Made by a program: the position numbers and the translations under genes. The notes below the pieces were generated by a model. That model was not told the DNA's origin. It did not search any database and saw only the letters and a list, made by a program, of their open reading frames with translations. This document shows positions 7,313 to 53,102 of a stretch of DNA of 64,000 bases, piece by piece. How positions within the stretch are numbered: the stretch's first letter is position 1; each line of letters starts with the position of its first letter. Source of the stretch: Eutreptiella sp. 'Long Island Sound 2002' (lineage: Eukaryota; Euglenozoa; Euglenophyceae; Eutreptiales; Eutreptiaceae); the NCBI GenBank assembly GCA_964036045.1, contig OZ038380.1:124230899-124294898 (forward strand). The letters are read 5' to 3'.

Positions 7313-8362
7313 AGAGGTATCAGATAATTCATGGAGGGGGTTAAATAATACATGAAGGTATGAATCAATTCACTGAGGTGGTTAAATAAATTACGGAGGT
7401 ATCAAATAATTCACGGAGGGGGTTGAAGAATTCGCGGAGGTATCAAATAATTCATGGAGGCGGTTAAATAATTCACGGAGGCACGAAGTAATGCACAGAG
7501 GGGGTTAAATGATTCACAGAGGTATCATAATTCACGGAGGGGGTTAAATAATTCACGGAGGTATCAAATAATTCAAGGAGCGGCTTGAATATTTCACGGA
7601 GGTATGAAATAAATTTCACGGAGGTCTGAAATAATTCAGCGAGGTATCAAATAATTCACGGACGGGGTTAGATAATTCATGGAGGGATCAAATAATTCAC
7701 GGAGGGGGGTAAACAATTCACGGAGCTATCAAATAATTCACGGAGGGCGTAAATAATTCACGGAGGTATGGAAGAATTCACGGAGGGGATTACATAATTC
7801 ACGGAGGTATCAAATAATTCATGGTGGGGGTTAAATATTTCATGGAGGCATGAAATAATTCACGGAGGGGGTTAAATAATTCACGGAGGTATGAAGTAAT
7901 TCACGGAGGGGGTTAAATCATTCACAAAGTTATGAAATAATGCACGGAGATATCAAATAATTCACGGAGGGGGTTAAATAATTCACGGAGGTGTGAAATA
8001 ATTCATGGAGGGGGTTACCTAGGTATGAAATAATTCACGGAGGTGCTTAAATAATTCATGGAGGTATGAAATAATTCACGGAGGGGGTTCAATAATTCAC
8101 GGAGTTATGAAGTAATTTACGGAGGAGGTTAAATAACTCACGAAGGTATGAAATAATTCACGGAGGGTGTTAAATAATTCACGGAGGTAAGAAATAATTC
8201 ACGGAGGGGGTTAAATAATTCAAAGAGGTATGAAATAATTTACGGAGGTATCAAATAATTCACGGAGGGGGTTAAATAGTTCACGGAGGTATGAAATAAT
8301 TCACGAAGGGGCTTACATAATTCACGGAGGTATGAAAAAATCCACGGAGGGGGTTCAATAAT
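7313..8362. repeat. 41-bp satellite array
   Basis: About 1.05 kb of the satellite, abutting the left direct repeat of PLE1. Variants include shortened half-units and isolated unrelated bases. Confidence 0.95.
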
Positions 8363-8556
8363 TCACTCCCAAAGATAAAAGTCGTCGACGGATATAGCAA
8401 CACTCGGATAAAATTGTCCAAACTCCACTTGTGTTAAGTTGCAAGACAAATGCACCACTCACAACAATGAATGTCAAACAAAGTCCACTGACTTCCAACG
8501 TCAAGTACGCGTTTCGACCCTAGGTAGGGTCCTCCTCAGCCAGAACAATCCTATGG
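8363..8556. repeat. PLE1 terminal direct repeat, left copy
   Basis: Begins TCACTCCCAAAGATAAAAGT and ends AACAATCCTATGG. Matches 44166-44366 in the same orientation with a few substitutions and one small indel. It corresponds to the pseudo-LTRs of Penelope-like elements. Confidence 0.9.
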
Positions 8557-9624
8557 GACACAAAAATGACATTATTCATGGATATGGGGTTAGGGTTGAA
8601 AAATCCCCACCCGAAACATGAAAATATTCCAAAATTGAAATTATCATTAGGATTGGGTACGGACTTGACGGCGTGCCATAGTCTGTCAAAGGCTCAAACT
8701 TCGAAGTCTTGACCTTGCGGCACACCACACAAAAGCCTTCCGTCTTGGCCTTCCTTGGTCGCCCGGGCCAAGTTCCTTGCATCTAAAAGGGAAGGCAACC
8801 CATGAGAGAAAGTTGAACAAGTACAACAGCGAAGACCATACACTAGTACATACCGTTCAAAGCCCTAAAGGCTCAAAGCGTTGTCCTTGTCCTTTCGCAA
8901 GATGAAAGTCTTTAAAATGACCTATTTTGTATCCTTGAATCTAAGGATCATGGTGCAAGCATCGGAAGACACCAACCTCCATTGTCCCAAAACTTGTTGC
9001 TTACCACTCACACAAAACACCGGCCGCAAATGTAGAACCACTGAACTCTTAGTTTGACGAACCAATCTACCACAATGGTAGATTGGCAATGGTGGCATCT
9101 TACAAATTGAGACCTTGTTGTTGAACTACGAATGTGCATACCTGAGGATGGAATCCGAAACTTTGTGGTCACGGAGCTCTTTGCAGACCAAGCAGGCCTA
9201 CAAACTTCTTCTTGTTCTCGGCTGCATAGAAGTGAAGATAATCGACCGACATGGGTAAAACGGCGATCCGGACCAGAAAAAAAAGTACAGAATAAAAAAT
9301 ATTGAGTTACTTAATGGAAACATATGAAAAACGCATGCATACCGTTCAGGAATAAAAAGATAATTTCTCCGTTGACCACCCCAGTGTGGCGCGCAGGCGG
9401 CTTTGGACAAGCTGAGTGGAGCTGCATTTTTTCGCTGCCGCTTCTGCTGTCATGTGCGCGTCGCGGCGCCTGTCGCAGGTCACATGTGCAGCACAGAGAT
9501 AATATAGAATCTGCAAAAATGACGATCAATGGGCCACATAAATGGCCGATCCGCGAAAAATGGCATCGCACTGTACCATTAGGTCCGGCTAAATCGTCAG
9601 ATCGAAAATCCAGTCACGTGTGCA
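8557..9624. other. PLE1 3' noncoding region
   Basis: Between the left direct repeat and the end of the RT frame. Relatively A/T rich, with no convincing ORF on either strand. I looked here for a GIY-YIG domain, which usually follows the RT in PLEs, and saw none. Confidence 0.55.
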
Positions 9625-13401: not shown

Positions 13402-13434
13402 TGGGATGCAGCGTTCTAGGGCGTGGTGCGGAAC
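13402..13434 (+). repeat. Element 1 left TIR
   Basis: TGGGATGCAGCGTTCTAGGG followed by CGTGGTGCGGAAC. It is the exact reverse complement of 26406-26438, identical to the element 2 ends, and nearly identical to the isolated copy at 30431-30462. Confidence 0.95.
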
Positions 13435-13588
13435 CCCCCCAATTTTGGGTGTTGTTAATATGGTTGGAACCCGGAATTTCACATGTTACATGGGTGCACT
13501 ATGATGCAACAATGTGCCTTCCATGTTTCGTTTGCTCGATATTGCCTGTTTTGCACTTTTTGCGATTTGATCTTTGTGTGCTCTAACT

Positions 13589-13735
13589 AGTTATCGCGGG
13601 GTTAGAACGGGGTTAGACCACTAGTTATCGCGTGGGTTATCGCGCGATAACCTAGTTATCGCGGGGGTTATCGCGGGGGTTATCGCGCGATAACCTAGTT
13701 ATCGCGTGGGTTATCGCGTGGGTTATCGCGCTTCA
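13589..13735. repeat. GTTATCGCG motif array (element 1, 5' region)
   Basis: Repeated CTAGTTATCGCG, GGGTTATCGCG and the palindrome GTTATCGCGCGATAAC, just upstream of the first gene's ATG at 13789. The same array is at 33612-33768 in element 2. Confidence 0.95.
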
Positions 13736-15449
13736 TTTTATGTTTCCCCTTTTCGCTTTAGCTCTCAAAGCTTTCATATTCTTTGATAATGGCCCTTGCT
13801 GCTGCCCACGCTTGGTGCGAGCACCATCAAAAGCTCCTTGGGGTCCGTCGCCTTGGCGGTCCTGAGGGGTTTACGATGGGTGATGCCAATGTGAGGCGCC
13901 CTGTGGCGACCCGCTTTGAACATGGTTTGGACTTTGGACTCCTTGTCCATAAGTCCCCCTTCATGGCGGACAAGCGAGACCCCCTGGTTCTCAGCAACTA
14001 CATCTTCGAGTTGCTAGAGGTAAATCCGGGGGTTGCTGGATTTTTGATCCAGCTTCATCCGGACGATGTGGACGCCGTGGTGGAGTCCGTCACCGCCCAT
14101 GCCGAGAAGGGTGCGGGGACGAAGACGACCCTCTATGTGGGTCAGGAGGAGGAGGAGGAGGAAGTGGAGGAGGAGGAGGAGGATGCGGGGGGGGTGGGGG
14201 CTGGGGGGAGGAAGGAGAAGCCCCACAACCCCCTCATGATTAGTGTCCACAAGGTAAGGATCCGACCGGGTAAGGGGAAGGGGCAGTCGGATGGTTGGTT
14301 CCCCCAACCCCTCACCCACAACACCCGCCGGGTCTGCACTGACGACCCCGAAAACAAGCTCCCCATGCACTCCCTTTGCCCCACAAGGGAGTGGGAGCGT
14401 TAGTGGTATGGGGTCACCACTCCCAACATTATTTCGGGGCAGGGGGTGATTCTTTTTCCATTTGGGGCAACACCCCCCCTTATTGGGGAGGCGGAGGAGG
14501 TGGTTGCCGCCGAGCCCTTGGGGGCCTTTAATAGGGACCCCAATGACCTTGTGCTCACGGTGGGGGGAAAGCTGGTGGTCAACCACCTCCTGGAGCACGA
14601 TTTTTTGAGTGATGTGCAGCTGCAAAGTCTTTTGGATGATTTGGATAGGGTGCCTCTCTCAGAGAAGGCACCCATTTTCAATGAGAACCCCCCCATTGTC
14701 GGCAGGCCCCAAGATTCTGGGACCCGCCGTACATTGTATGGCAACTATGGGGGTGCCAACCACCACAGGCACAACCCCCACAAGCTCCATGATCTGCCAG
14801 TCCTCAAAAGGGTGGCAGATCGTGTGCTTGAGACGGCGAAGAAGACTGTGGTGGGGGGGGTTGGATGGAGCTGCACCATCCTTGACATGGCCGAAATTTC
14901 GAGCTATGACCACACCCCCCAGCACCTCCATCGCGACGCCCCCCCCTACACCATTCCTGAAGGCACATTGATTGTCAATTGCCTTATTATGCTAACCCAT
15001 AATCATCAGGAGGAGGATGGGTCACATTTTCTTTTTGTGCCCTCCAGCAGTTCGGGGTTCCCTGACCCTTGGGTGGAGAGGGCTGTGCCATTCAAGAGGG
15101 GCACTGCCTTTTTTTTTAATGCCCTTGATGTACACCGGGGGTCGGGGATTCCCAAGGCCTCCCCCACGGGGGTGTCCCACCCCCGCCTCATGGCATTTTT
15201 TGCCATTGAGCTTACCCAGGGGGGGAATCTGTAACTACGAAGCCAACCCCAGATACTGTACATTCGCCAACTCCTGGTCAACTCCATGTCGAGAGCATTC
15301 AACTTGCTTGTACTTGTGCACTGTGTTGTTGCTACGCCTTGTGCATGAAACGTGAGGAACTATTGATATTTTACAGCTTTTGGTTGCGTTGCTTTGTTGT
15401 TATGATGCAATATGTGGGTTTTTTGGGTCGAAGCCAACTTTTTGGAAGC

Positions 15450-15615
15450 CAAGTCAAAGTTGGCGCGCCAACTTGGCAGTTGGCGCGCGCCAACTCAAGA
15501 GTTGGCGCGCCAACTGCCAAGTTGGCGCGCCAACTGCCAAGTTGGCGCGCCAACTTGGCGCGCCAACTCTTGAGTTGGCGCGCGCCAACTCCGGTTTTGG
15601 CGCGCGCCAAGTGCC
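15450..15615. repeat. TTGGCGCGCGCCAA motif array (element 1b, 5' region)
   Basis: Nine or so palindromic TTGGCGCG(CG)CCAA cores with short variable spacers such as AAGT and AACTCAAGAG, between the left end and the first gene's ATG at 15681. Confidence 0.95.
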
Positions 15616-15680
15616 CCATTCTTCCTCTTCTTTTGCACCCTTTATGCATTCCCTTTCCCTTCTAGGCATTTCACGTTATC

Positions 15681-18482
15681 ATGCCTCCAAAGCAACCCAA
15701 GAAGGGCAAGGGGAAGAAGGTGACAGTCACCGACCCCACGTCTGCCCCAGCCCCAGCCCCCGCTGCACCACCTAACCCCGAGGTGCAGCCGGTGGTCGAT
15801 GCCCACATCGCCAACGTGGGCTCCGAGCACTTCCCCGGGGGCTATTTTCCCATCCCCTACACCCTCACCTCCCCGGACGCCGAATCCTTCCCCCAGCTCC
15901 CCCCCCTCCGCGAACCCCTGGAGGCCGCCCTCTTCGGCAAGTGGGACCAGCCGGGCAATCCCCACTTGGTCTGGCGAATTGACGCCACCCGTGTTAACTT
16001 CGCCCTGACCAGGGGGGTTCTTAGCAGGTTCTGCTGTGCCGTGATGGGCCGGTACCCCACGACGCTCGCGGTCGAGTTGAAGCTTTCTCAAGTCACCCTT
16101 GAGGCCTTCAACAAGACCCTGAAGCTGTGCACTGCTGCAGCGTCAAAAGAGTTCGTTAACGTTCTCGACCTGCAGGAGATGCCGCCTCAGGGTCTCGACC
16201 CCGAGGAGCAGTGGCTGTGGGTGGATCCAGTCAAAAAAAGTGGCTGGATGCACCGCACGGCCACTGACGCCGTCGTGCGGTACCAGACGGTGAAGGTGCA
16301 GGCGTGGGATGCAGTAGCTCACACGGAGTTCTCCACCAACCGTCGCCTGCGCACCCACATCCCCGACATCACCCACCCCACCCTCTACAGCACCGACGCC
16401 CCCTTCACCATGCTTGGCATGGGTTGCCCCCACCCCTCCTTCCACAACTCCTACCCCGTCGCCAACCACGACATCCCCAACCCCCCCATCGTCACGGAGG
16501 AGGGTTTTGCCGCGGCGGGCTACCGCCAGTATGACCGCATCATCCCCGAGGATCTGTGGGCCAGACTGGCGGAGCTCGCCACGGTGGAACTCAACCCGTC
16601 GATGCTCGAGGAGGTGGACCTCTAGGCCCCCGGGGAAGGTGGGGGGCGCTATCAGACGACGGTCTCCAGCGTCCCCCACTGGTTCCCGGACGACCTCTGG
16701 CAGGCTGTTCTGGCCCTGCTGGGGTTCTCCCTCCCACCGCTGCAGGGACTTGAGGCCTTGTGCCCCAAGATCATCGAGCGGTGGGAGGCAGAACCCTGGA
16801 AGGGTTTCCAGATCCCCCACCGCGATTTTGCACTGTCTGTGAAACAGTCAGTGCAGTGCATGGTTGTGTTCATCCCCCTCACCACCTCTCCCCCGTCCAA
16901 GTCCCTCCAGGTGTGCCCAGGCACGCAGGGGGGCTATCACGCTGCGCATCGGTGGGATATTGTTATCCAACCGCTTCGCAGCGTGACGCTCCTCCGCGGG
17001 ACGGTGATCCACCGCGGTGCGGGCGGGCCTGGCCGGGCACTGTTCATCCCGTTTGCACCCGTCGGCTACCGGTCGCGCATGCTGACCGTAGAGCCGGAGA
17101 GTGTAACGGAGCTGATGAACAGTGTTCCGGTGATGCCCTCCGAGCTTCTGGCCGAGGGGGCTGCAGTCGGGTCCCCTCTGTGCCTCCCGTATGGGTCCGA
17201 CCCGTCCAGGTACCGGCCCCAGGATCCACCACCCCGGCAGAACTACAGCCCCCTCGACCAGGGGTCTGAGGAGGCCGAGGCAGCCGCCACCGACCCCGTG
17301 CCTGCCCCCCACGAGGTGGACATGCCGGAGGCGCCGGCGGATGCGGAGGAGAGGCCGGCCGCGCCGGCTGACGCGGATGCCGCCCCCCCCCCCACAGAGT
17401 GCGGCACAGGAGGAGGAGGAGATGCCGGCGGCGCCAGCGGATGCGGAGGCGCCGGCGGATGCGGAGGCGCCGGCGGATGCGGAGGCGCCGGCGGAAGCGG
17501 AGGAGAGGCCGGCCGCCCCATCCCCGGCAGAGGAGGACTTCCTCACTCCCGACGCGACCCCCCAGCCAGTCTGCTTCGTGTGGGAGGCTGAGCAGCCGTT
17601 GGACCCCCCGGTGCCCTACATGGGGGACGTCCTCCTCTTGCAAGAGGGGCTGTCTGCGGGTCTTTTTCTGACCCCCACCGACCACGCGCACGTGGGGCCC
17701 ACCGCCGAGGCGGCCAGAGCGGATGCCTGCCTCACTCCGCACATCCACCGGTGGTGGCTTCCCCCCCTCGAGGCCACCGACTTCTGCCGCGTGCGCTGCA
17801 CGGCCGGCACGGTGGTGTACTCGTTCGCCGCACTGGGCGCTGCGTTCGTGCGGGAGCCAGGGGCCGGCCGCATGGCCCGGATGTCCATGGCCCACTTCAG
17901 CCCGCCCCTGAGCTCCCAGGACGCCGAGATGTTGGACCTCGTCCGTGTGGACAAGGCCCGCCGCAGCATCTGCTCCTGCAGCGAGAAGGTGTGCCCGCGC
18001 GGTGCCTTGCATGCATGCGATGTTGTCACACGTGACACGAATTTGGCGCGCGCCAAATAGCAGATTGGCGCGCCAACTTCGCAGTTGGCGCGCGCCAACT
18101 TCCATCTTGGCGCGCGCCAAGTCACCGGTTGGCGCGCCAAATGTTCGGTTGGCGTGCGCCAAGTCCAGTTTTGGCGCGCGCCAAGTCAAGTTTTGGCGCG
18201 CCAAATAGCTAGTTGGCGCGCGCCAAGTGCTGTTTTGGCGCCTGAATTCTGTGGCTGGTTTTCGAGTTGTCGCTGTTGCAGTGGTGTCGTTGTGTGCATT
18301 GTTTTATGCCTGTGTTGTTGCGCATTTGCAGGGGTTACATGGGGGTCAAAGAGGCCACCCTCACGGAGATGAAGGGCCTACTGGACAAGCACCCGGTTGC
18401 GCACCTGCTTGACCCCAAGCGCAGGCGGGCGGAAGAGAGCAAGGGGAGTCAGAGTCAGGGCAGCAAGCGGTCGAAGAAATGA
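15681..18482 (+). pseudogene. Element 1b 2OG-Fe(II) oxygenase-like gene
   Basis: ATG at 15681 opens a frame starting MPPKQPKKGKGKK (basic), then a Pro/Ala linker and a domain of about 280 residues I do not recognise. A TAG at 16623-16625 interrupts it, but the same frame continues to about 17390. It then carries QIPHRDF (near 16815), a PGTQGG turn, VIHRGAGGPG (near 17005) and RALFIPFAP: the HxD...H...R layout of double-stranded beta-helix oxygenases, closest in pattern to the phytanoyl-dioxygenase type. A C-run frameshift near 17382-17396 leads into an acidic Ala/Pro repeat and another globular section to about 17988. GT at 17989 and TTTGCAG at 18331 bound an intron holding a motif array; the last exon ends in a basic tail at 18482. 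The TAG and frameshift suggest decay. Confidence 0.6.
18045..18240. repeat. TTGGCGCGCGCCAA motif array (element 1b intron)
   Basis: Tandemly spaced palindromic cores fill the intron between donor 17989 and acceptor 18331 of the oxygenase-like gene. Confidence 0.95.
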
Positions 18483-18497
18483 GCAGGCACTGGCTGG

Positions 18498-18700
18498 GCA
18501 TGGTTTTGGCGCGCGCTAAGTGGTAAGTTGGCGCGCCAAGTCCTGATTTGGCGTGCGCCAACAGGGGAGTTGGCGCGCGCCAAATGGGAAGTTGGCGCGC
18601 CAACTTGCCACTTGGCGCGCGCCAACTCAGGACTTGGCGCGCGCCAACTGACGAGTTGGCGCGTGCCAAATCCTGAACTGGCGCGCGCCAAGTGCCTGCC
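18498..18700. repeat. TTGGCGCGCGCCAA motif array (element 1b, between genes)
   Basis: About nine palindromic cores between the stop of the first gene (18482) and an apparent acceptor CCGCAG (18778-18783) upstream of the second gene. Confidence 0.95.
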
Positions 18701-18802
18701 AACTGTGTGCCATCTGTGTGCGAACGTGCAACAACGTTCCGTTGCATGATCTAACCCGCCTGTCACGTCCTCACGTGCCGCAGGTCTTTGTTTGTGCACC
18801 AT

Positions 18803-20614
18803 GCAGCGGCCCTTTGAGCAGCTGGCACCCTCAAACTACCGCGACAGGCGCGCGCGGCTGGCAAGCCTTCGCGAAGTCGTGGGGGAGATTTTGGGGCCAC
18901 ATTGGGAAGTACACGTCAAACCCGGCCGCCGCCGCATCCACCTCGTTTGCGGGGAGAGCAAACCCCCCACCCCCGATTTGGAGCTGTTGGCCGCGGCCAT
19001 TCCGTGGGAGAGCCGCAAAAATGGCGACAGCTTCCGCAAACTGCAGTACAGCCGGGCACACAGCCAATGGAAGTGCCCATGGGGAACCCTGATGCAGGTG
19101 CGAAAGGCATTGTCCGCCCCCCGTGTCACGGAGGTCCATTTTCAGACGGACGAGGACAATGACATTTTTGGGGCCGCATGCAATCTGTGGCAGAAACTGC
19201 ACGTATTTTCACCCTGCACCAAAGCGTTTCCCGGCGACCGTTCACGGTGACCCGTTACACACGGCCTGTTTTGTGGCATAGGTGATGTGGCACCGTGACG
19301 GCCCCACGTTCCTGACGGACAACGTGTGGGTGGGCATCTCCTTCGACGGGACAAAGCTCTGGCAGGCCTCCTTCGTGCATTTTGCCGTTGGAGACCTGGG
19401 GAGTCATATGCCCTTGGGCTCTTGGATCTTGCTGCGCGGATCCGAGAAGAAGGCCATCATTTCCCAATCGGCCGAGGTCTATGACCTGAACGCGGACCTC
19501 ACCGAGGTGGCGCAGCAGCAAATCCCCGATAAAGGGGGTTACCTGCGTAAGGTGATTTGTTTTTTTATAGCAGACACCAAGGCGCAGGTCATTTTGGGGG
19601 GTTGCTCCTCCTTCACGGCCAAAAACCCCGCAGCCACCGTTTGTTGGCTGTGTGGGAAAATCGGGCAACCATTCTGCACGAATTTGGTTGCGGGATGGGG
19701 GTAATTGTCGAGGAGTGGCTGTGGGCGGGGATGATCTGCCCGATCGTGCGCCCCGCCCAGCGGCCCCCCGACTATGGGCTGCATGGTGTGCACCGGCAAG
19801 TGCACAATGGGCTTTCAGCCCTTGTGAACAGCCTCCACACGGTGCATCGGTGGCAAAGGGGAAAGGCCGTGAGGTGGGTGCAATGGTTCCTGGATCCCAT
19901 TCGGATCCAGGCACGGACCGCCACCGGGGTGGCGTTGGAAGAGGAGAGGAAGGATAAGAAGAAGGTGCCCCTGAAAATCGAGCAGACGGCGGCTGCCGAG
20001 TGGGTGAAGAGTGAGGGATGGGACACCATGTGTGACCATCTGGAGGGGGAGGGCCTCCTGCAGCATGTCGTTGACATGGGGGGGGTCCGGGTGTCCTGGA
20101 CGGACGCCTTCCGGCAATGGGGAAAATCCCTGTTGGCAACAAGCGATGTCGTCTGGAAATCCGGACCTTGCAGTTGCCCGACATGAAAATTTTGCGAACA
20201 GAATTGAAAAAAATGGGGGAGGCCCATAAGGCCTGTGAAATGAACGTCACCCTGTGGGCCCATCTGTGGATTGACCACCTGTTGGGATGGGCCCGCAGGT
20301 GGGGGCACATTGCCATTTTTGCCGCCTTCAAAGGAGAGGGGCGGCACAAAGCCCTGAAATGTGAAATCTCAAAGCGCAGCTTTCGAGGTGGAAGTAAAGG
20401 CGGCCGGGTGTCCAGACTGCGGGGGGCCAGAGTGCGGGTGAAGGGGGGCAAGGGGGATCGCACGCGGAAGGGGTGGGGGGAAGTGATCCGCTCAGATAAT
20501 CTGGACTGGGGGTTATATAATAAAAAATTTTCGGTTTGGGAGTCGTCGTGGACGAAGCAAAGGGGGTACATAGAGAATAAGGGGGTCTTCGTCCAGGCTG
20601 AACAAGGCATGTGA
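18803..20614 (+). pseudogene. Element 1b DDE-type transposase candidate
   Basis: Segments 18803-19250, 19282 to about 19670, then shifted frames to 20186 and 20117-20614. A very short GT-AG intron (about 19249-19280) may join the first two. Key pattern: VGISFDGTKLW (Asp codon at 19345), then FFIADTKAQVILGG (Asp at 19573) leading into AATVCWLCGK, then WIDHLLGWARRWGHI and FKGEGRHKALK (Glu at 20335). The element 1 transposase has the same order (Asp-Gly/Ala; Asp-x-Lys...Gly-Gly...C-W-L-C; His-rich helix; Glu followed by basic residues), which recalls the RAG1/Transib-type core. At least two frameshifts (near 19660 and 20150) break it. Transposase function is inferred from pattern and position. 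Confidence 0.55.
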
Positions 20615-20796
20615 CCTCTATATATGATTTATATGATTGATTTGACAGCTTCTTGCACATTCGCAGTCTTTTGCACATTAATCAAAAAAAGATGGAACAA
20701 TGCTTTCTTCGTGCCAAGTGTGCAAGGGCAGGTGAGGGACGGAATTTCCAGTGACAACAATGGTATGCAAGTCGATTGTTTGATCGGTGGGGGGAC

Positions 20797-20925
20797 ATTT
20801 GGCGCGCGCCAAGTCGCAAGTTGGCGCGCCAAGTCCGGACTTGGCGCGCGCCAACTTCCCAGTTGGCGCGCGCCAAGTCCGGACTTGGCGCGCCAACTTG
20901 CGACTTGGCGCGCCAACTTGTGAAA
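20797..20925. repeat. TTGGCGCGCGCCAA motif array (element 1b, 3' region)
   Basis: Six or so cores with spacers GTCGCAAG and GTCCGGAC, between the transposase candidate and the right end. The cores recur in mirrored order, so the array is nearly a large inverted repeat. Confidence 0.95.
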
Positions 20926-21865
20926 TTGCGCGAGCCCAGGCCCGGGAAGCCAACTTTGGGACTTTTGTACCGTGTAGGAGTGTTTTCAGCACGAGAGGGG
21001 CATGAAACCCGGGTTTTTTCAGGGTAAGAAGTTTCCATTTACACCAAAAAGGAGGAAAAAATCCCTAGGTAGCCAGTGTAACAACATAATAGACACCCGC
21101 CGTGATTTGGCTGCATTCCGAAGCAAGTTGGCGAATGTCTCTTGGCTTCGTAGTTACATCTTCGATTCCCCAACCTGCACGTGACGCAGTCCATTAAGAG
21201 GCCCCAGCTGGGGGCACCCGCTGGCCGGGTGGCCGGGACAGTCCAGTGTGATGGGGCGGTTAGGTGTAGGGGGAAGGTGGTAGCCAATTGCTACGGATGC
21301 AATCGGCTAATTTTGTGCACCGCCCACAAAGATGGCCTTTGTGTGCCATGCCAGGAGGGGGAGGAGGTGGAGGGGGGGGGGGGGAGGAGGTGGTGGTGGA
21401 CCCCAATGGGGTCAGCATTGAGCAATCTGCTCAGTGCTTGCTCCCGGTGGGAACAACCACCGGGCATTTTTTGTTGTCGGGGTGGGGGATTGGGAGGGAG
21501 GTGATTGCCCCCCTCACTAATGAGGAGGCGGGGGCGGTCGCAAGCCACCCCGATCAGTGCCCCTTGGCCAAGGTGTGCCATGGGGAGGCACTGCCCTGGC
21601 CCACCTTGCAAGGGCATGTTGGGATGAAGGTGCCGGCGGGCACCATTTTGGTGGTGAGGAGGGGGTTGTATGGGGGAGTGGCAAGGGTGGCCCCTGAGGT
21701 GGAGGGGGTGGCCCAGGTTGTGGAGTGGCGGCAGGTGGGGGAGTATGCGGCCGTCACGGACTTCGTGTGGCTGCGGAGGCTGGGCCTGGTGCTGGACGAC
21801 GCCAAGAAGGAGGGCCAAGGCATGTGTCCATGTCACCAGGTGTGAAAACTTCCCACAACACCCTG

Positions 21866-22050
21866 CTCTAACCCCTGCTCTAACTAGTTGTCGCGCTAGG
21901 TTATCGCGTTCTAACTAGGTGCTCTAACTAGTTATCGCGCTAGGTTATCGCGTTCTAACTAGTTATCGCGGGGTTATCGCGGGGGGTTATCGCGGGGGTT
22001 ATCGCGCGATAACCTAGTTATCGCGGGGGTTATCGCGCGGGTTATCGCGT
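21866..22050. repeat. GTTATCGCG motif array (element 1 intron)
   Basis: CTAACTAGTTATCGCG, AGGTTATCGCG and the palindrome GTTATCGCGCGATAAC repeated within the intron 21840-22081 of the first gene. Counterpart at 35963-36125 in element 2. Confidence 0.95.
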
Positions 22051-23292
22051 GTTTTTTTTTTGTTTCTTTTGTTTTTTTCAGGCTACCATCTTGCAGCTGC
22101 CCCGCATCTTCGTCAAGGACGACGCCCAGGCAGCCGACGCAGCAGGCGGAGCGGCAGAAGCAGCGGGGGCACGGCCCGCCAAGCCGGTGGCGGCCCGGTT
22201 GGAGCTGGAGGGGGAGAAGAGGCTGCCGGAGGGGGCGTCGTGGCGGTTTGGGGAGCCTGGGGATGAGGCCTGCAGGATGGGGGGGACGGGATGGTACCGG
22301 CAGGTCACCATCACAGAGAAGGAGGGGGGGGTGGAGAGGAAGACCAACCTCACCCTCCCCTCCTATGTGTGGGTTGGGGGGGAAACGGCCAAGTGGCCGC
22401 AAGCCGCAGAGGGGGAAACGGTTGCGGCTTTTTTGTGTTTGTTTGGGATGAGCGACCCCCCCCAAAGGAAATCTTATTTCCTTTTGAGGGTGTGTTTTTT
22501 GTGGGAGGGGGAGTATACGGGGAGGGAAGTGTGGCAGAAGCTGCACAGGGGGGGGGACATCCACCAGGTTGGTGGGTATGACCCCCCCCCTTCTGTGGTG
22601 GACGCCACTGCCGATTGGGTTCGGCAGTATGCACCCAAGGGGGGAAGGCCGGGAAAAGGCCAGACGAAGCGGGGACCAGACGTGGTGGTGGTTGAGCCGG
22701 ATGCCCCCCCCCCCTTAGGGGTAAGGGCCAAACCCCCGCCCCCAAGCCCTCCCCCAAGCCATCGAAGGTGGCAAAGGTGGCGGCAGCCCAGCCCCCCCAT
22801 GAGGCCCTGGACGTGGAGGCCTTGGGGGCCAGTGTGGCCACCCACGTGACGGACGCTTGCCAGGTTTTGGTGGAGCAGGCGGCCGCCACGGGGGTCGAGG
22901 CCGCACTGGCCAAGGGTCGGTCGGCCGACCACAAGTCGGCCTTGGCGAAGGCCGAAAAGGCCCAGGGCAACACCCAGCGTGCCCTGGACCAGGCCCTCAA
23001 CCTGGCCGCCAAGAGGGGGGAGGAGGTGGAGGCGATGAGGGAGGCCCCGAGGGAGGCCCAGGAGGGGAGGCGGAAGGCGGAGGTGGAGGTGGCCCAGCTT
23101 AGGGTGGAGGTGGAGGGGCAGCGGAGTAGGGGGGATGACCTTGGGCAGCGCTTGGGGGTGGCTGAGGCGCAGGTGCGCAGCCTGACCTCCACCCTCTGTG
23201 CCTCCTTCGGGGCGCAGCAGGCCCGGCAGGGGCTGGCGCCGCAAGGGTTGCAGAGTCAGGGTAGCGGGAGTAGGAGTGGGAGCCAATGACTA

Positions 23293-23925
23293 GTGGATTT
23301 GCTCAAGGGGTTGCCCAAGGGCATTTTTCGTGGGGAGCAGCGATATGGGGCCCAAGTGGACATGTGCCACTTTGGCCTTGTGGGAAGTGGAAACCCCAAC
23401 CCCTCTAATTTTAGGGCGACCCACATGGCCGCTGCTACCGTGAGGCCTGCCCTCACCCCCTTGGTTGCAGACCTCAATGGGTATTGCACCTCCAATGCTC
23501 CACCATGGTTCACATGGTGTAGCATCCAAATTGTTCGCCCCCAAGGGACGGACACCATGGGCCTCCACTCCCATTTGCGGGATGGGGCGCCCATGGCGCT
23601 TATTGTGTGTGTGGGGTCTTTCACGGGGGGTGAGTTTTGGGTGGAGAGTGGTGGCCTGCTGAATCCCTCCTTGAGGGAAAAAAAGCGGCACACCCGTGTG
23701 TGCAAGGGTAGGGCGATGGAGGGTGGGGCATGCACCGCCACCCCCCAAGCCCCGGTGTTGTTCAACACCAGGGCACTACACGCTCCATTGCCATGGGAGG
23801 GCGAGCGATGGAGCGTGATTTTTTATAGTGCGGGGGGGGTTCTGCACTGCACGCCTGTGTGGCGGCAGCAGCTGCTGTCCATGGGTTTTAGGGTGCCCAA
23901 TGCTTCCTCTAACCCCTCCAGCTAG
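23293..23925 (+). CDS. TET/JBP-like 2OG-Fe(II) oxygenase, copy 1
   Basis: 211 codons. The core reads LHSHLRDGAPMALIVCVGSF, then TGGEFWVE, FNTRALHAPLPWEGERW and SVIFYS, ending VWRQQLLSMGFRVPN. The pattern GxFTGGELWVE...H..LPW.GERWSVIFYS...LGF.P is that of TET/JBP-type oxygenases abundant in protist genomes; TET and JBP hydroxylate 5-methylcytosine or thymine in DNA. Distal His is residue 163 and the 2OG-binding Arg about 172. The usual HxD reads His-Ser-His (residues 92-94), in both copies, so activity is uncertain. The frame opens right after the preceding gene's TGA with a GTG codon and has no ATG until 23362; a spliced leader exon or continuation of the upstream gene is possible. Confidence 0.7.
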   Translation: MDLLKGLPKGIFRGEQRYGAQVDMCHFGLVGSGNPNPSNFRATHMAAATVRPALTPLVADLNGYCTSNAPPWFTWCSIQIVRPQGTDTMGLHSHLRDGAPMALIVCVGSFTGGEFWVESGGLLNPSLREKKRHTRVCKGRAMEGGACTATPQAPVLFNTRALHAPLPWEGERWSVIFYSAGGVLHCTPVWRQQLLSMGFRVPNASSNPSS

Positions 23926-24164
23926 TGTTATTTGTGATTCGATTATTGTTCACTATTTCTATTACTGTACTCTGTGGACTCTGAGGAGGGGCAACTAGCC
24001 CGGAACATGTCCATTTGACTGATTTGAATTTGTGATTGTGGCGCCATGTACCCCGTGCCTGCACATTGTTGACATCTCCAAGGTTTCCTGGGTGCAAAAT
24101 CAACGTTTGTGAAGGTTTTAGGGTGCCCAACGCTTGCTCTAACACCACCAGTTAGTGCGCACTA

Positions 24165-24332
24165 ACCCCTGCTCTAACTAGTTATCGCGGGGGTTATCGC
24201 GCTCTAACCGGGTGCTCTAACTAGTTATCGCGGGGGGTTATCGCGCTCTAACTAGTTATCGCGGGGGGTTATCGCGGGGGTTATCGCGCGATAACCTAGT
24301 TATCGCGGGGGTTATCGCGTGGGTTATCGCGT
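24165..24332. repeat. GTTATCGCG motif array (element 1, before transposase)
   Basis: CTAACTAGTTATCGCG and GGGGTTATCGCG repeats, again with GTTATCGCGCGATAAC, between the second oxygenase and the transposase. Counterpart at 37308-37472. Confidence 0.95.
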
Positions 24333-24395
24333 GTGTTTTTTGGGCCCTTGCTTCAAAACCCTCCCTCATTTCGTGTCCAGGTCCTCTTATTCTTC

Positions 24396-26056
24396 ATGGA
24401 CAGTGCTGTCAATGAGGCCCTGCGGGCTCTCAACACAGCTAACCTCCGGCGGTACACCGATCTGCAGTGCCCCAAGGCCCGGCGGCGGCGTTTGAAGGCG
24501 GTTCAGCGGCTGGTGCGAGTTCTATTGGGTGACCCAGACGTCGTGTGTGGCACCAACACCAAAGGCGAAGTTTGTTTAAGTGGTGGGGCGTGCACTGCCC
24601 TGTCTGGCCCACTTGGCGGCCATCTTGCATTAACAGCTCAGGAGCATGAGGCCCTGAGCATGCTACGCATGGCATGCAGCATGCATCTCTCCCAACGGGC
24701 CCTTTTGCGAATGCCCCGCCGTTGCACACAACGGGACCTAAGGACCGTTCGGCAACGGATCATGCCCTACTTTCCCCAAACCACCATTGTAAAGTCTACC
24801 ACAGGCCGCAATAGGGCAGCTGCCCATGTGCCTTTGCAATCAATTGTGCAAAATGCAATATCTATGGCCCGAGTTATTGGGAAACCCCCCACTAGTGGCG
24901 TTGCCATTGTTGTTATTTCAGTTGATGCGACTTCCTTGTGGAAGGCATCCTCCACCCGTGCGGATGTATGGGTTAATGTATGGGGGGGGGCAAAATATGC
25001 TTCGAAGGAGAAGCTATGGGCCTCATGGTTTTGCATGGATGGCGGGGATGAACAGGCTTTTTTGAGAAGCCTGGACATCCCCGCCAACCTCAACCAAGAG
25101 GTGAGGGATGTGGAAGAGGACGTTGTCCTCTTTCAAAACCAATTTTTGACTTGCACTGTCATTTTGACAGGGGATGGGAAGGGGATGCAAGCAATGGGGG
25201 GGGCTGGGTCTAAGTGTTGGTTGTGCAAAGACCCCAACGGGATTGTTGAGCAAATGGGGGTGGAGTCCACCTCAAGATGGGGGGCATTCTTGAGAAGTGT
25301 GACCCCTCATAGGCGGCCGGGGGACTACCAACATGCAGCATGCCGCATCCTAAACGGCATTGCAAAGCGCATTGAGACCACCCTTCAGGCCCTCCCCCCT
25401 GGTACCCCTGGTAAGGCCCAAGCTCTTGCAGCTTTGCAGGCCTTCAAGCAAGCCCTCAAGGATGAGACCTCAGGCATCCCTCTGAGGGAACGCCTCCCTT
25501 CGGCCTCGAGGGCCACAGAAAAAGATTTCGATCTAACAAGCACCAAAGTTTTCCTAACCTCCCCCCCCTTCCAAAGGCAATTTGTGGATTGCCTCAAAGA
25601 GCATGTCCCCACAGTGAGGACCCCTGGGGGACCTATATTATGGGTTGTTGTGCATGTCATGGTGAAATGCATTGAGGGTTTGTATGAGCTTTGGAGGGTG
25701 AGGGAGATGTACACTCTAACCCAAGTGGAACGCCACCGTGCGTTGACCACAAAATTTTCAAAAGCGTGGGGAGACTCAGGTTGGTCCCCCACCAGGTGAA
25801 TCCATTGGTGCTTGGCACATTCCGCCTTTTTTGCCGAGAAATGGAGGAACATTTTTCAGTTTTCCTCCATCCCAACGGAGTATCGGCATGGGCCTTACAA
25901 GAGGAGGCTCAAAAATTGTTTTTGAAGGGTTGGTCCTTGGTGAGGCCAAGTATGTCCCTCCGCCACATGCACCATTGCATGTCCATGAACGCCCTGGAGC
26001 AAGGGCTTTTGGGACTGGAGGCAGCCAAGGCCTCAGACATTGATGACTTTGTATGA
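24396..26056 (+). pseudogene. Element 1 DDE-type transposase candidate, copy 1 (broken)
   Basis: ATG at 24396 follows an apparent acceptor TCGTGTCCAG. After a basic N-terminus come VVISVDATSLWK (Asp177), VILTGDGKGMQAMGG (Asp260) with SKCWLC, and, beyond the stop, IHWCLAHSTFF and IPTEYRHGPYKRR (Glu about 495). The Asp...Asp-Gly-Lys...C-x-x-C...LAH...Glu...basic order resembles the RAG1/Transib catalytic core and matches the element 1b gene. A TGA at 25797-25799 replaces a Trp codon present in copy 2, and a 2-bp insertion near 25920 adds a second stop. It is not KDZ-like: I see no YDxAC or DGExxER motif. Exact family unverified. Confidence 0.6.
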
Positions 26057-26124
26057 AAAACGACCACACATGCTTTGTGCCAAGTGTTTTGTGTTGTTTG
26101 TCCTAGGGAGGGAGGGAGGAGGGG

Positions 26125-26235
26125 TGCGCGATAACTACCCGCGATAACTGCGCGATAACTGAGTTATCGCGCGATAACTAGCGCGATAACTAGTTAGAGC
26201 AAGGTGCTCTAACTGCGTTCTAACTCTGTTCTAAC
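26125..26235. repeat. GTTATCGCG/GATAAC motif array (element 1, 3' region)
   Basis: CGCGATAACT repeats (inverse orientation of the 5' arrays) plus GTTCTAACT and GCTCTAACT units, between the transposase and the right TIR. Counterpart at 39266-39385. Confidence 0.93.
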
Positions 26236-26405
26236 TGTGCTCTAACTCTTTGACCCCCCCCCCCAAAAACCACCCCTACAATGAGGGTTATGTGGGGAAA
26301 GAAAGGGGATGGGGGGTTTTTGAGGGTGCTGAATCCATTTTTTTAGGTGGTTTGCCCCAAAATTGAGGGTAGGTGGGTGTTCCAGAAATTGCGTTCTAAC
26401 TAGGG

Positions 26406-26438
26406 GTTCCGCACCACGCCCTAGAACGCTGCATCCCA
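26406..26438 (-). repeat. Element 1 right TIR
   Basis: Exact inverted copy of 13402-13434, followed by the TA duplication at 26439-26440. Confidence 0.95.
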
Positions 26439-26918: not shown

Positions 26919-28717
26919 ATGGCTGTGCCCCCCCTGCCTGACGACTATCAGCGGGAAGGTGGTTACCTCGCGGTGACCAAGCCCGAGGAATTGGAGTTTG
27001 AGACGTGCATCTGCTTCCAGGTTTGATGCCCCTTGACTCCCGTTACACCTTGCTGCGTGTGTTCCCCTGCATTCACGCTCCCTTCGCACCCCTTAATTCC
27101 CATCCACTGCCTGCACTCATCCACTTCGCATGCAGAGCACAGCGGCACTCAAGCTGTACTATGCAGCTTGGGTGCAGAAGAATGCTCCAAAGAGCAAGAA
27201 GCTCTGGTTGACGAGCATCGTCAACTACAAGGTCACCGGTCGGGGCAACAACCGGCTGGCCGGTGCCACAACCAACGTGGCGGATGGTACATGGAAATAC
27301 TCTGAGGTGTGCAGCTGTCCTATTGCCTATCCTATCGCTTGCTTTTGTTCTTCATTGTTGTTGTGTGGTTTACCTAGGAATTTCCGTCTCCGTGCACTTG
27401 TTTTTCAGATCACAGCGTTGTGGTCCCAATGGAAGGATGACTCGGATGAGGAAGGACAGGAGGAGGAAGAGCAGCAGGAGGAGGAGGAGGAGGAGGAGGA
27501 GGAGGAGGGAGGGGAAGACCCAGGGAAGGTCCCCATCACCCCTCCCCCCAAGAAGGCCCCCCGCACCAGCCAAGGGAAGGAGATCGTGAAGAAGGGCAGT
27601 CCCAAGGCCCAAGAAGCCCGAAGCCCCAAGCCCAGCCCCAAGAAGAAGGCCAAGAAGGCACTCCCCGCCACAAGTTTCAAGAAGATCGTGGTCAAGGAGG
27701 GGCCGACCCGGAGGCAAGCAGACTTGCGGCGCCCTGGGTTCAGGCAGAAGATCCAGCACGCCTTGGAGACCTGCGCAGAGGCCGGGTACAACTTTACCTG
27801 GGCCAAGTGGCGCAAGCACTACGCCGAGTGCATCGCCCACACCGCCAAGGGGCAGCGGGCCTACTACAAGGAGCTCTTCTGCCTGTCTACTACGTTGGTG
27901 TCCTTGGCCAGCGGCGACGTTCTGCAGGCTGCCGGCAAATGCCACGCTGGTTGGGCCGGCTCAGTGCAGCGCGCCAAGGGAAAGCTGCAGGCGATCTGTA
28001 CGGAGAACGCGGTTGACAAGGTCCCGTATGAATTTGCAGGTGTGCCTGCTGCATCCAGTCTTTTGGGCTGCCCTGTGCAGCCGGTGGGCTGCAATGTGCA
28101 GCCAATTGGCTGCATCATGCAGCCATTTGGCTGCATACCTGGCTGCATACTCGGCTGCACTGTGCACCCGATTGGCTGCAAAGTGCAGCCCACAATATGT
28201 TCCTTGTTCTTTCATAGGAGACTGCCTTGAGTCTTTCCTCGACTGCGAGAACTGCGACGATGCGGTGGACTCGGACGAATTGCCGGAGGGTGAGTATGGC
28301 TGCAGTGTGCAGCCGGAACGGCTGCAAGATGCAGCCATGCGGCTGCAGTGTGCAGCCCACTGGCTGCACAACTGGCTGCACTATGCAGCCAGTTGCCGGC
28401 TGCATTATGCAGCCATACGTTTTTCAATGCAGCCACCATTGCGGCCAAATGGCTGCACTATGCAGCCAAACGGCTGCACGATGCAGCCAGCATAATTTAC
28501 GATGCAGCCAGTCGGCTGCGTGATGCAGCCAAGTGCATTTTGGTTCCCTGTTTGCATCCTGCTTCGCACTGTCACCTGCTCCCTGTCTTGCTGTTCCTTG
28601 CAGAGTGAAAGCGCCAAGGCGGCGGAATCCAACGACGAGGTCGAGGAGGTGAAGGCGGACCAGGACGAAGCGGAGGAGGTTAAGAGTGAAGGGGCCGGGG
28701 AGGGTGCGCAAGCCTAA
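26919..28717 (+). CDS. Element 3 accessory gene, five exons
   Basis: Exon 1 26919-27020 (MAVPPLPDDYQREGG to CICFQ); exon 2 27136-27306 (YYAAWVQKNAPKSKKLW, GTWKYSE); exon 3 27409-28039 (ITALWSQWKDDSDEE, a long Glu run, a Lys/Pro section, then RQKIQHALETCAEAGYNF and TAKGQRAYYKELF); exon 4 about 28218-28288 (DCLESFLDCENCDD); exon 5 28604-28717, acidic. Introns are GT-AG; the exon 4 donor is one base out of phase with exon 5 and unresolved. The last two introns carry the motif arrays. Exons 1-3 match the element 4 accessory gene in order and pattern. Function unknown; the acidic run and basic regions suggest a nuclear DNA- or chromatin-associated protein helping the adjacent transposase. Confidence 0.65.
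28065..28195. repeat. GGCTGCA...TGCAGCC motif array (element 3 intron 3)
   Basis: Five or six motif pairs within the intron 28040-28217 of the accessory gene, including GGCTGCATCATGCAGCC. Confidence 0.92.
28295..28535. repeat. GGCTGCA...TGCAGCC motif array (element 3 intron 4)
   Basis: About eight motif pairs within the intron ending at TTGCAG 28603, for example GGCTGCACTATGCAGCC. Confidence 0.92.
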
Positions 28718-28971
28718 CTCCTATTTATTTTCCCTGTTGTTGTACAATTGAACCCGGTCGATTCCGCCTGAAAGAGAGCGGTACCACAGTGTGTATGAGT
28801 GACGTTGACTGACTGTTGTTTTGCTTTGTGTTGTGCCTCCGCTTTGCGTCTGTTTGACAATTGCAGAAAGATAGAAAATGTATTGGAAATAAAAATAAAG
28901 ATACACAGAACGTGGAACATAGAACGTGGAATAGAACAACGATTTGGGACGAATCGGTGGTGTAACTTTTT

Positions 28972-29052
28972 GGCTGCTAGGCTGCAGCCATTTGGCTGCA
29001 TCCATGCAGCCATCCGGCTTCATAGTGCAGCCGACTGGCTGCATAGTGGAGC
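28972..29052. repeat. GGCTGCA...TGCAGCC motif array (element 3, before transposase)
   Basis: Four or five motif pairs shortly upstream of the transposase ATG at 29105. Confidence 0.92.
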
Positions 29053-29104
29053 CGCTGTTATGTAGACCCGGGACGCACTGTCTTTGTTCTAGGCCCCCCA
29101 CAAA

Positions 29105-30462
29105 ATGCGGTACGAAGCCAGAGAGCTCAACTACAACGAGGTCCAGAGCCAACTACCTCGTGACCCCCTTCCGGGACATTGTGTGCTACCCAGGGCGCAC
29201 CCGGGTCGATTTTTGAAGATCATGCTGAAGCCCATCCACATGGTGATGCGCCGCCACCTACGCAACCGCGGGAAGGGTGGCCTAGTCAAACCTCTTTGGA
29301 GGTACCTGGCCTTCAAGATGTGGTTAGGAATGCTGAAGCCCCGTCGTATTGACGACCTGTTCGAGGTCGGGCACCCGGATGAGGACAACTATGTCGCCAA
29401 CCTCTTGCACCGCAAGCTGTTCTACAAAATGCAACGCAATTGCAATGTGGACATCACCTCCCTAATCGAAGCGTGTAATGAGGGATGGGTCCAATGGTGG
29501 GAGCACGGGGATGCAGTTGCAATCGATGAAGCAGTTGCACCCCATAAGGGTAGAAGAATTGGGGGTATAATTCAATATATCCCCAGGAAACCACACAGTA
29601 CGGGGATTAAGCCATATGTTTTATGCGATTATGTCTCTGGCTATGTGCTGCAGGTGTATTTATACACCGGGAAGAAAGGTCAGCTCCGAAGGAGTAGCCC
29701 AAAAGTGGCTGGCAAGTTCACAGGACCAGAAATTGTAAATCATTTTTGTTCATCCCTACAGCCATGACAGATGTTGTCGTTGTTTGTGACAGTTTTTTAG
29801 GATCTCACAGGCTTGCTCAGATGTTGGCCTGCAGGGAACAACCTTTTTTATTTTTAGTCAAACATGACCAGCTAGGGGTGCAGGAAGGGGGGGCACTCTT
29901 GAGTGAGGGGGAACACTGTATCACCACCAATGCAGATGCAGGATATGCACTGCATGTGTACAAAAACCCCAAGGTCGGGGGGAAGGCTGCTCGTGTGGTC
30001 CCGCTGATGACCAATTGCGCGCCTGAGGAGCACAACACTGTCTCCAAATCGGGCAAACCAGTGCCTGGAGTAATTCAGGCGTACAGTGATTTGGCCGGGG
30101 GGGTGGACACAGCCAACCAACTCGCCTTACAATGGCGAGAAAGGGGAAGATTTAGGAAATGGTCCAATTCTGTTCGGGCATTCATGCTGCGCTACGCAGC
30201 AACAAATGCATATCTTGCACCGCGGTACACAAAGTCCATCCACCACGACTGCTCAATGTACGATTTCCAACTGCTTGCATTGGAACACATGTTCCCAAGA
30301 GAGTCCGCACCAGACCACACACCCTCAAAAAGGACAAGTAGGGGGCGATGTGTTGTTTGTGGGCAGCGCACCTACTGGTGGTGCCCGACGTGTAATGTGC
30401 CATTGCATGTAAACGGACGGTGTTGGACTGTGGGATGCAGCGTTCTAGGGCGTGGTGCGGAA
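29105..30462 (+). pseudogene. piggyBac-type transposase of element 3, frameshifted
   Basis: DDE_Tnp_1_7 family. First catalytic Asp in VAIDEAVAPHKGRR (codon 29525), then QYIPRKPHSTGIKPYVLCD and YVLQVYLYTG. A frameshift near 29762 separates it from the rest: VVVVCDSFLGSH (second Asp) and AGGVDTANQLALQW (third Asp, codon 30106). The C-terminal Cys-rich segment reads RCVVCGQRTYWWCPTCNVPLH. Alignment by eye with the intact element 4 transposase shows the join is a 1-2 base error, not an intron. The frame then runs into an isolated copy of the element 1 TIR (30431-30462), so the natural C-terminus is lost. Cut-and-paste activity is not expected from this copy. Confidence 0.85.
30431..30462 (+). 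repeat. Solitary element 1-type TIR in element 3
   Basis: Thirty-two bases starting TGGGATGCAGCGTTCTAGGG, identical to the left TIR of elements 1 and 2, with no right partner nearby. The next 20 bases are only loosely like element 1 (a shared TTGTTAATA). It may be a relic of a deleted family member, or the end of a related element that mobilised this piece. Confidence 0.85.
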
Positions 30463-30537
30463 TGCACACCATTGTTAATAGCGTACAAGGAATGTCTCTA
30501 CGTGTTTCTCGCATGGTCTGGGTTGCTGCAGGACGGG

Positions 30538-30870
30538 ATGGCTGCACATGGGCTGCACATTGGCTGCACAGAGCTTACCGTGGCTGCACATGGGCTGCAT
30601 GTTTTGGGCATGGCTGCACAATGGCTGCATACATGCAGCCAAATGGCTGCACTCATGGGCTACAAATAAATACGTTTTGGCTGCAGACATGCAGCCATTT
30701 GGCTGCATTTGTGCAGCCATTTGGCTGCATCTATGGCTGCACACATGCAGCCAAATGGCTGCACAATGCAGCCACTGTTTTGGCTGCTTTTTTTTGCCAC
30801 CGGCTGCACTTGGCTGCGTTGGTCCCATCGACTGCCGAAAAAGCAGCCAAAATCCTGGCTGGGTCGCAGC
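30538..30870. repeat. GGCTGCA...TGCAGCC motif array (element 3, right subterminal)
   Basis: About fifteen motif copies, single GGCTGCACA and paired GGCTGCA...TGCAGCC, between the transposase and the right end. Confidence 0.93.
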
Positions 30871-52709: not shown

Positions 52710-53102
52710 CCGTGTTGAAAATGAAAATGCTTCGAGTTGTTTTGACGCAACTCGTGCTTCTATGCCCTTAGTGTCACACAGCGAAGCAAAACAGCCTCAA
52801 GCTTGAATCAACACTGGCAATGTGTCACTCTGAGCGTCTACTCCATAAGAGTATGCATTTCGCCGCCAAACAACAGCGCCCTCATCAGCTCACGCTAAAA
52901 ACTAAAAGGCAAATGCACAGCATGGTCCAGGATGTGAAAATCAGAACAATTGAAGCGACAGACCAACAAATTCGCAAGCAATGAAAAAATCGCAAAAGCG
53001 TAAGAGCCAAAAGCGACAGCGACACTTTGGAATGGCCAGGGCTAAGCGCCTGCACGCCCATCAACCAAAAGCAAATCATGAACCGTCAGTTCCGGGGTAA
53101 AA
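52710..53102 (+). repeat. PLE2 inverted terminal repeat, left
   Basis: Matches the reverse complement of 58571-58964 with scattered substitutions and small indels, up to CCGGGGTAAAAG. Confidence 0.92.

Follow-up and report, generated by a model that had tools for sequence, protein, structure and literature searches.

Our study examined a 64,000-nucleotide stretch of the genome of the euglenid Eutreptiella sp. 'Long Island Sound 2002' (GenBank assembly GCA_964036045.1, contig OZ038380.1, positions 124,230,899 to 124,294,898 of the forward strand; hereafter the window) and found within it two copies of a DNA transposon family, designated family E, which carries two oxygenase-like open reading frames (ORFs) and a coiled-coil ORF beside its transposase. 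The same set of genes recurs in a second, distant family, F5. The best explanation of the whole, to which we give a probability of about 0.45, is that the accessory proteins of the element edit marks on its own DNA, acting through CpG-rich palindrome arrays that lie before its ORFs and at its ends.

Anatomy and copy number of family E

Element 1 (13402–26438) and element 2 (33433–39577), both on the plus strand, are copies of one DNA transposon family and are 98 % identical to each other. Their termini are TGGGATGCAGCG and CGCTGCATCCCA, which fix these bounds exactly. Element 1 has TG...CA terminal inverted repeats and a target site duplication (TSD) of TA; no TSD was seen for element 2. The first-pass annotation of the window had described perfect inverted ends of 33 bp, and those of element 1 are indeed free of mismatches, but they run to 36 bp (13402–13437 on the plus strand, partnered by 26403–26438). 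Element 1 is interrupted by a 5.9-kb nested transposon, N1 (15231–21157), and element 2 has lost 960 bp, equivalent to 22025–22984 of element 1, which removed most of ORF2a. Neither window copy is intact, and some copies elsewhere are.

Further copies with the same ends are present in the 2.28-Gb genome, where at least 40 matches of approximately 99 % identity cover 999 or more of the first 1001 bases; this count is a lower bound, as 40 of 1834 candidates were scored. Full-length copies of approximately 7.10–7.12 kb occupied 9 of 20 fetched regions (L009, L011, L012, L014, L015, L017, L021, L023 and L025). Target sites were compared in 18 copies, namely 16 of the 20 loci and both window copies, with L016, L022, L027 and L028 excluded as incomplete or tandem. 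A 2-bp TSD of varied sequence flanked 14 of the 18 (chance 3e-14), one copy had a 3-bp TSD and three had none; two of these three, L012 and L023, have one flank in common. All 18 copies have TG..CA termini. Family E is a young, high-copy DNA transposon in this euglenid genome. Exact matches to the Euglena spliced-leader sequence number 3283 there (1601 + 1682), against 0 for the reversed sequence used as a control, in agreement with a euglenid host. Tandem head-to-tail copies of its first 606 or 1413 bp were also observed, at L017, at L027 and at places on C2 and C7.

Thirteen E copies were aligned. They were chosen among those that best matched the initial 1001 bases, a stretch that takes in the start of ORF1. 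The reading frame was open for ORF1 (717 aa) in 8 copies, ORF2a (423–425 aa) in 3, ORF2b (200–211 aa) in all 13 and the transposase (582–584 aa) in 4, and two copies, L011 and L012, kept all four frames open. The oxygenase-like ORFs are not decayed relative to the transposase by this count, which is biased by the small size of ORF2b and by the selection of copies on a region that includes part of ORF1.

Transposase and class of the element

The transposase ORF (24396–26053 on the plus strand in element 1, with a methionine start at 24396; 37536–39192 on the plus strand in element 2) is broken in both window copies, by a TGA at 25797–25799 in the former and by a frameshift in the latter. The first-pass annotation had proposed a DDE-type transposase at this position, and the signature that we found, D-D-C(2)C-H(4)H-E, is of the CMCT (CACTA/Mirage/Chapaev/Transib) type. 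The residues D177, D260, C274xxC277, H470(4)H475 and E495 are invariant across family E, its distant database relatives P0038 (38 % identity, 93 % covered) and P0046 (31 % identity, 50 % covered), the families F5, F3 and F4, and N1, with six or seven sequences providing data in each column. The E transposase is 28 % identical to that of F5 (E 3e-38) and 22 % identical to that of F3 (E 2e-6). It matched nothing in Pfam or NCBIfam and had no meaningful match among PDB sequences, and no relatives of it were found among viral contigs.

Pfam includes models for KDZ transposases, and the first-pass annotation had already noted that KDZ motifs are lacking. This was upheld, and membership of the KDZ group was rejected on the absent Pfam match, the 2-bp TSD and the CMCT motifs; P0004, P0038 and P0046 gave no Pfam match at E-values up to 10. 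The motif order D-D-C(2)C-H-H-E is described as the signature of EnSpm, Mirage, Chapaev, Transib, Plavaka and ESTA transposases in a study of fungal elements (PMC12730594), which gives CMCT transposases a TSD of 2–5 bp and, in most but not all cases, CA..TG termini. Family E carries the residue signature and its 2-bp TSD fits, whereas its TG..CA ends differ from the usual CA..TG. Judged by motif signature and TSD, family E is classified as a cut-and-paste transposon of CMCT type.

The oxygenase-like ORFs

ORF1 is open over 717 aa in element 2 (33793–35943, plus strand), where it comprises a putative 2-oxoglutarate (2OG)-Fe(II) oxygenase-like domain with an HxD...H...R pattern, a Cys-rich part and a C-terminal region; its motifs read LHRD...DVHRG...RLMAFF. 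In element 1 the first part (13762–15231, plus strand) contains a stop at 14401–14403 and is cut by N1, after which the ORF resumes, frame-broken, at approximately 21154–21842. An HRD...H...R protein with a Cys-rich region had been described at first pass and is present, but the coiled coil said to be fused to it belongs to a separate ORF, ORF2a (22013–23286, plus strand), which is a coiled-coil protein by eye, is frame-broken in element 1 and is open in L011, L012 and L014. Comparison of ORF1 with the Pfam family PhyH gave E-values of 0.003–0.07, with the best score (18.3 bits) under the curated cut-off of 22. The profile leads comprised PhyH, 2OG-FeII_Oxy_3 and TlxJ and no others, the last being a 2OG dioxygenase that was the best PDB-sequence match of a combined E and F5 profile, over the HxD region, at a suggestive but not significant E-value of 0.1. 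ORF1 may thus be described as 2OG-Fe(II) oxygenase-like by its HxD...H...R pattern and, weakly, by profile, as PhyH-like.

ORF2b (23290–23922 in element 1; 36431–37063, 211 aa, in element 2; both plus strand) carries the motifs LHSHLRD...GSFTGGEF...ALHAP...GERWSVIFY in family E and GHRHMRD...SGGEV...AHHGP...GERYAIVFY in F5. TET/JBP proteins are characterized by an HxD metal pair, a GG after the HxD strand, a distal H and the R of GxRyslvf. The GG, distal H and R features are present in ORF2b of both families, and ORF2b can be said to resemble TET/JBP by motif alone. The Pfam Tet_JBP model did not match ORF2b of E or F5. A genome search with this model (PF12851) returned six places, one of them above the cut-off, and none of the six coincided with a listed E or F5 copy; two weak places, when compared with ORF2b, showed no significant likeness. 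The single match above the cut-off, at C2034:19243-19665 (minus strand) on a 49-kb contig, lies in a 534-aa open frame (E 6.6e-18) and is a host gene or a contaminant.

Recurrence of the gene set in family F5

Family F5 has the same order of ORF1, coiled coil, ORF2b and transposase, and retains the active-site residues of both oxygenase-like ORFs. Its ORF1 has an open frame of 601 aa (L035:2531-4333, minus strand) and shares 25.6 % identity with that of family E over 450 positions (E 3e-19); H390, D392, H458 and R475 are invariant between the two, with HRD, HRG, R and several Cys residues kept. The ORF2b proteins share 31 % identity over 190 aa (E 1e-30) and retain H93, H95, G113-G114, H164 and R173. 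An inner stop was found in 11 of the best 150 of 3734 candidate F5 copies of ORF2b, a set that is biased towards good copies. Individual F5 copies vary in what they keep: those on C7 have ORF1, arrays and transposase, with ORF2b reduced to approximately 20 residues; the C4 copy has ORF2b, which carries an F4 insertion at its end, together with an array and a transposase frame open over 541 aa; and the C25 copy (L044) has, in order, a frame-broken ORF1, a coiled coil that is partly duplicated, ORF2b, an array and a broken transposase.

Two oxygenase-like ORFs beside one transposase, the feature noted at first pass in elements 1 and 2, are present in family E and recur in F5. The joint recurrence of ORF1 and ORF2b in distant families, with their active-site residues, argues for a function that the elements need. 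Random decay of the oxygenase ORFs was rejected, given the open copies in E, the mostly open F5 copies of ORF2b that were listed and the active-site residues kept between the families.

A conserved stop codon between ORF2a and ORF2b

In family E, ORF2a and ORF2b share one frame and are parted only by CAA TGA CTA (23284–23292, plus strand, in element 1; 36425–36433 in element 2), a high-readthrough stop context, in 15/15 copies that retain the site (18 were examined and three had lost the region). The coiled-coil ORF and ORF2b of F5 likewise lie in one frame, parted by CAA TGA CTA at seven of eight distinct places (L038 lies inside L044 and was counted once); the eighth is without the upstream part. 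When a 44-codon stretch at the junction was compared without gaps, using one copy per family, only 1 of the 41 other codons was identical between E and F5, and within ORF2b the same codon was used at 27 of 61 identical residues. The identity of nine bases amid so few matching codons argues for selection at the RNA level. In human cells, UGA CUA is reported as the high-readthrough consensus (PMC4359377). ORF2b contains no ATG upstream of residue 25 in E, and in F5 none upstream of its motif; this is in keeping with an extension of ORF2a and less so with a gene of its own.

An intron across the stop was considered as an alternative. The stop is followed in F5 by a pyrimidine-rich stretch and a CAG, which by eye have no counterpart in E, and the two halves share a frame in each family; for these reasons readthrough was preferred. 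Our preferred reading is that ORF2b is probably produced by UGA-CUA readthrough.

CpG-rich palindrome arrays and CpG transitions

Each family carries its own palindromic, CpG-bearing motif, being GTTATCGCG/CGCGATAAC in E, TTGGCGCGCGCCAA in N1, CGCTCAGTGAGCG in F3, TTCGTACGAA in F4 and GTATACGGCCGTATAC in F5. The motifs are arrayed in front of ORFs and at the element termini, in F3 at its two ends only. In element 1, plus-strand arrays precede ORF1 (13580–13730; approximately 33611–33761 in element 2), ORF2 (21876–22059; approximately 35977–36125 in element 2, where it is cut by the deletion) and the transposase (24170–24341; approximately 37311–37482 in element 2), and a 3' subterminal array of the inverted motif CGCGATAAC lies on the minus strand at 26128–26247, within approximate bounds. 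The number of CpG per 100 bases inside the arrays of E, N1, F3, F4 and F5 was 11.8, 13.9, 7.9, 12.9 and 11.2, compared to 3.7, 6.9, 5.6, 6.3 and 3.4 outside them. The motifs, which were chosen after being seen, gave 39, 56, 17, 17 and 26 hits in the same order, whereas simple shuffles averaged no more than 0.23.

Transitions in family E had affected 39 of 640 CpG sites and 92 of 3459 other C/G sites (odds ratio 2.4, p 4e-5). The raised rate at CpG suggests that E copies bear 5-methylcytosine (5mC). In Euglena gracilis, regions around giant-virus insertions appear to be heavily cytosine-methylated, according to PMC12455990.

Proposed function and alternative explanations

We propose that, beyond the DDE transposase required for movement, family E makes two accessory products: ORF1, in which an oxygenase-like domain would be joined to a Cys-rich module, and the coiled-coil ORF2, part of which would be extended through the leaky UGA-CUA into a fusion with ORF2b as a second beta-helix oxygenase-like domain. 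The coiled-coil or the Cys-rich part would perhaps aim these proteins at the CpG-rich palindrome arrays of the family, where an oxygenase could oxidize a silencing mark, with 5mC as the first candidate and thymine/base J as the second. Promoters and ends might thereby remain usable by the transposase, and the accessory genes would amount to a counter-silencing kit. It is plausible, as a hypothesis, that the elements edit their own DNA or chromatin marks. A more specific version is in our view on the unlikely side. In it, these families form an old euglenid transposon group with a two-oxygenase editing kit; the second oxygenase, ORF2b, would arise only by programmed UGA-CUA readthrough as a coiled-coil fusion, would have a 3-His (HxH...H) metal site and would be directed to the CpG palindrome arrays peculiar to its family, which would label every promoter and the two ends of the element.

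A number of results weigh against the proposal that the element edits its own marks. The metal-pair position of ORF2b reads HSH or HAH in E and HRH in F5, not HxD, and neither the Pfam, PHROGs and NCBIfam profiles nor PDB sequences gave it a meaningful match; the TET/JBP-like protein of the first-pass annotation stands as an ORF, with its GGEF, H and GER motifs, and falls short of a recognizable TET/JBP, and iron binding of the kind seen in TETs may be absent. No Pfam family was matched by the F5 ORF1, and the PhyH-type character of the ORF1 leads belongs to a group known mostly for substrates other than DNA. The beta-helix fold and metal site of ORF1 and ORF2b were not confirmed, because both AlphaFold2 models were unusable (mean predicted local distance difference test scores of 25.8 and 28.6, respectively). 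At the stop codon, no significant 3' hairpin was found (z -1.7 to 0.8), and two diverged E copies (P0083 and P0088) read R at the stop position. Protection of CpG specific to the arrays was rejected as not significant, with transitions at 6/160 sites in arrays and 33/480 outside them (p 0.18). Substitutions among the 13 young E copies showed no codon-position bias, and single copies therefore drift after insertion. Finally, none of the F5 copies on C7, C4 and C25 was seen to have every ORF open.

The ORF1 profile leads would be expected if the oxygenases acted on proteins, for instance on histones, on the transposase itself or on silencing factors of the host; a PhyH-like ORF1 might hydroxylate a chromatin protein and the element would still escape silencing. 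PhyH-type enzymes have mostly small-molecule and protein substrates, and to our knowledge none of the groups to which ORF1 was led by profile (PhyH, 2OG-FeII_Oxy_3 and TlxJ) acts on DNA. We nevertheless doubt this explanation, as both the placing of CpG-rich arrays ahead of ORFs and at the termini and the TET/JBP genes on fungal CMCT-group transposons (PMC12730594) point to DNA. It is more doubtful still that ORF2b is a beta-helix pseudoenzyme, or a metal protein with a 3-His site that serves in binding, for example by reading a modified base, which would leave ORF1 as the sole enzyme. The HxH in both families and the missing Tet_JBP match would suit such a protein, whereas the retention of HxH, GG, the distal H and GER at 31 % identity includes the R that is expected to bind 2OG, and some cupins catalyse reactions at 3-His iron sites.

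Should the TET/JBP likeness be a chance product of short motifs, ORF2b would be no beta-helix protein at all, in keeping with the lack of support for that fold from database profiles, PDB sequences and models; this is quite improbable, since H, GG, H and GER plus strand come in the order and at the distances of the TET/JBP pattern and the residues are kept between families. That the oxygenase ORFs are mere passengers, host genes captured and now drifting in the element, would account for the many broken young copies of E and for the lack of codon-position bias among them. It is hardly credible given that E and F5 share the two ORFs in one order and keep their catalytic residues at 26–31 % identity, and that the 601-aa F5 ORF1 at L035 and most of the listed F5 ORF2b copies are open. 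Self-directed editing through the arrays remains the reading that we prefer.

Relation to known systems

In plants, Spm/TnpA and VANDAL/VANC provide examples of element-encoded DNA-binding proteins that act on family-specific repeated motifs and keep the element unsilenced, without an oxygenase. Family E differs in adding oxygenase-like proteins, and its array binding is only proposed. The JBP1 and JBP2 proteins of kinetoplastids are 2OG oxygenases that act on DNA in the making of base J and, like family E, are euglenozoan; they are, however, host genes that lie off transposons, and ORF2b has no Tet_JBP match. Base J was reportedly found in E. gracilis by Dooijes in 2000. As both cytosine methylation and base J have been reported from this type of host, the action of the enzymes can be tested there. 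KDZ transposons with TET/JBP genes resemble family E in combining a transposase and an oxygenase gene in one element, and differ from it in their TSD, given as 8 bp for Zisupton (PMC12730594) against 2 bp in E, and in that the E transposase has CMCT-type motifs and no Pfam match.

The transposons of fungi that encode TET/JBP (TET+ transposons), which include CMCT-group EnSpm, ESTA and Plavaka elements and for which a counter-silencing role has been proposed (PMC12730594), may be regarded by analogy as the known relatives of the family E system. As described there, the CMCT members share with E a DDE transposase with C(2)C and H(3-4)H, a TSD of 2–5 bp and an internal 2OG-type oxygenase gene. 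Family E differs in its euglenid host and in its TG..CA rather than the usual CA..TG ends. It has two oxygenase-like ORFs per element, whereas the fungal elements are described there with a TET/JBP dioxygenase per element and the phrase 'two TET' occurs 0 times in the text of that study. Further differences from the fungal elements are an ORF2b that has HxH and is not recognized as TET/JBP, the conserved UGA-CUA before the oxygenase and the CpG palindrome arrays.

Among the titles and abstract openings listed in searches of open-licence literature, none described oxygenase-bearing transposons in Euglena or readthrough in such elements. Transposons that carry editors of DNA marks have been described in fungi, and family E would place a comparable case in a euglenid. 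If there is true recoding at the UGA-CUA, it would give a DNA transposon a means to adjust how much of an editing enzyme is made relative to its partner protein.

Nested and neighbouring elements

The transposon nested in element 1, N1 (plus strand), has the ends GTAACTACGAAGCCAA, a TSD of ATCT by eye and TTGGCGCGCGCCAA arrays at 15460–15610, 18043–18226, 18506–18691 and 20799–20916. It is, beside family E, a second kind of element in the window with a 2OG-like (HxD...H...R-like) ORF, N1 ORF1 (15666–17591, plus strand), which has an in-frame stop at 16623–16625, reads PHRD...VIHRG...RALFIPF and is 2OG-like by motif alone. Pieces of its transposase (18750–20611, plus strand) lie in more than one frame, belong to the same superfamily as that of E and match the F4 transposase with blastp E-values down to 7e-24. 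The ORF1 of F4 (on L031/L033) has the motifs LPHTD...RHHGLP, and the ORF1 proteins of N1, F3 and F4 are mutually related (7e-15 to 5e-5). For the 2OG-like ORFs of N1 and F4, likeness to ORF1 of family E went no further than motifs and homology beyond these was rejected, with hhalign E-values of 0.03 for the HRD...HRG part of N1 and 0.51 over 13 columns for F4.

A nest of four families was observed in the flanks of L025 and at L031, L032 and L033, with E just past the end of F3, and F3 and F4 in or beside F5; these nested families have related transposases and family-specific palindrome arrays. Elsewhere in the window, the interval between elements 1 and 2 holds GGCTGCA palindrome arrays and, by eye, piggyBac-like ORFs (27097–30669), and a long ORF at 41782–43425 matches DDE_Tnp_1_7 (E 4.6e-15), which we take to be of piggyBac type. 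A reverse transcriptase ORF (PF00078, E 3e-12) is located at 47122–49437. Large arrays of a 41-bp satellite occupy 4640–9600 and several other places, and a 400-nt inverted repeat (52710–53109 and 58565–58964) has arms that are 96 % complementary and spaced 5455 nt apart.

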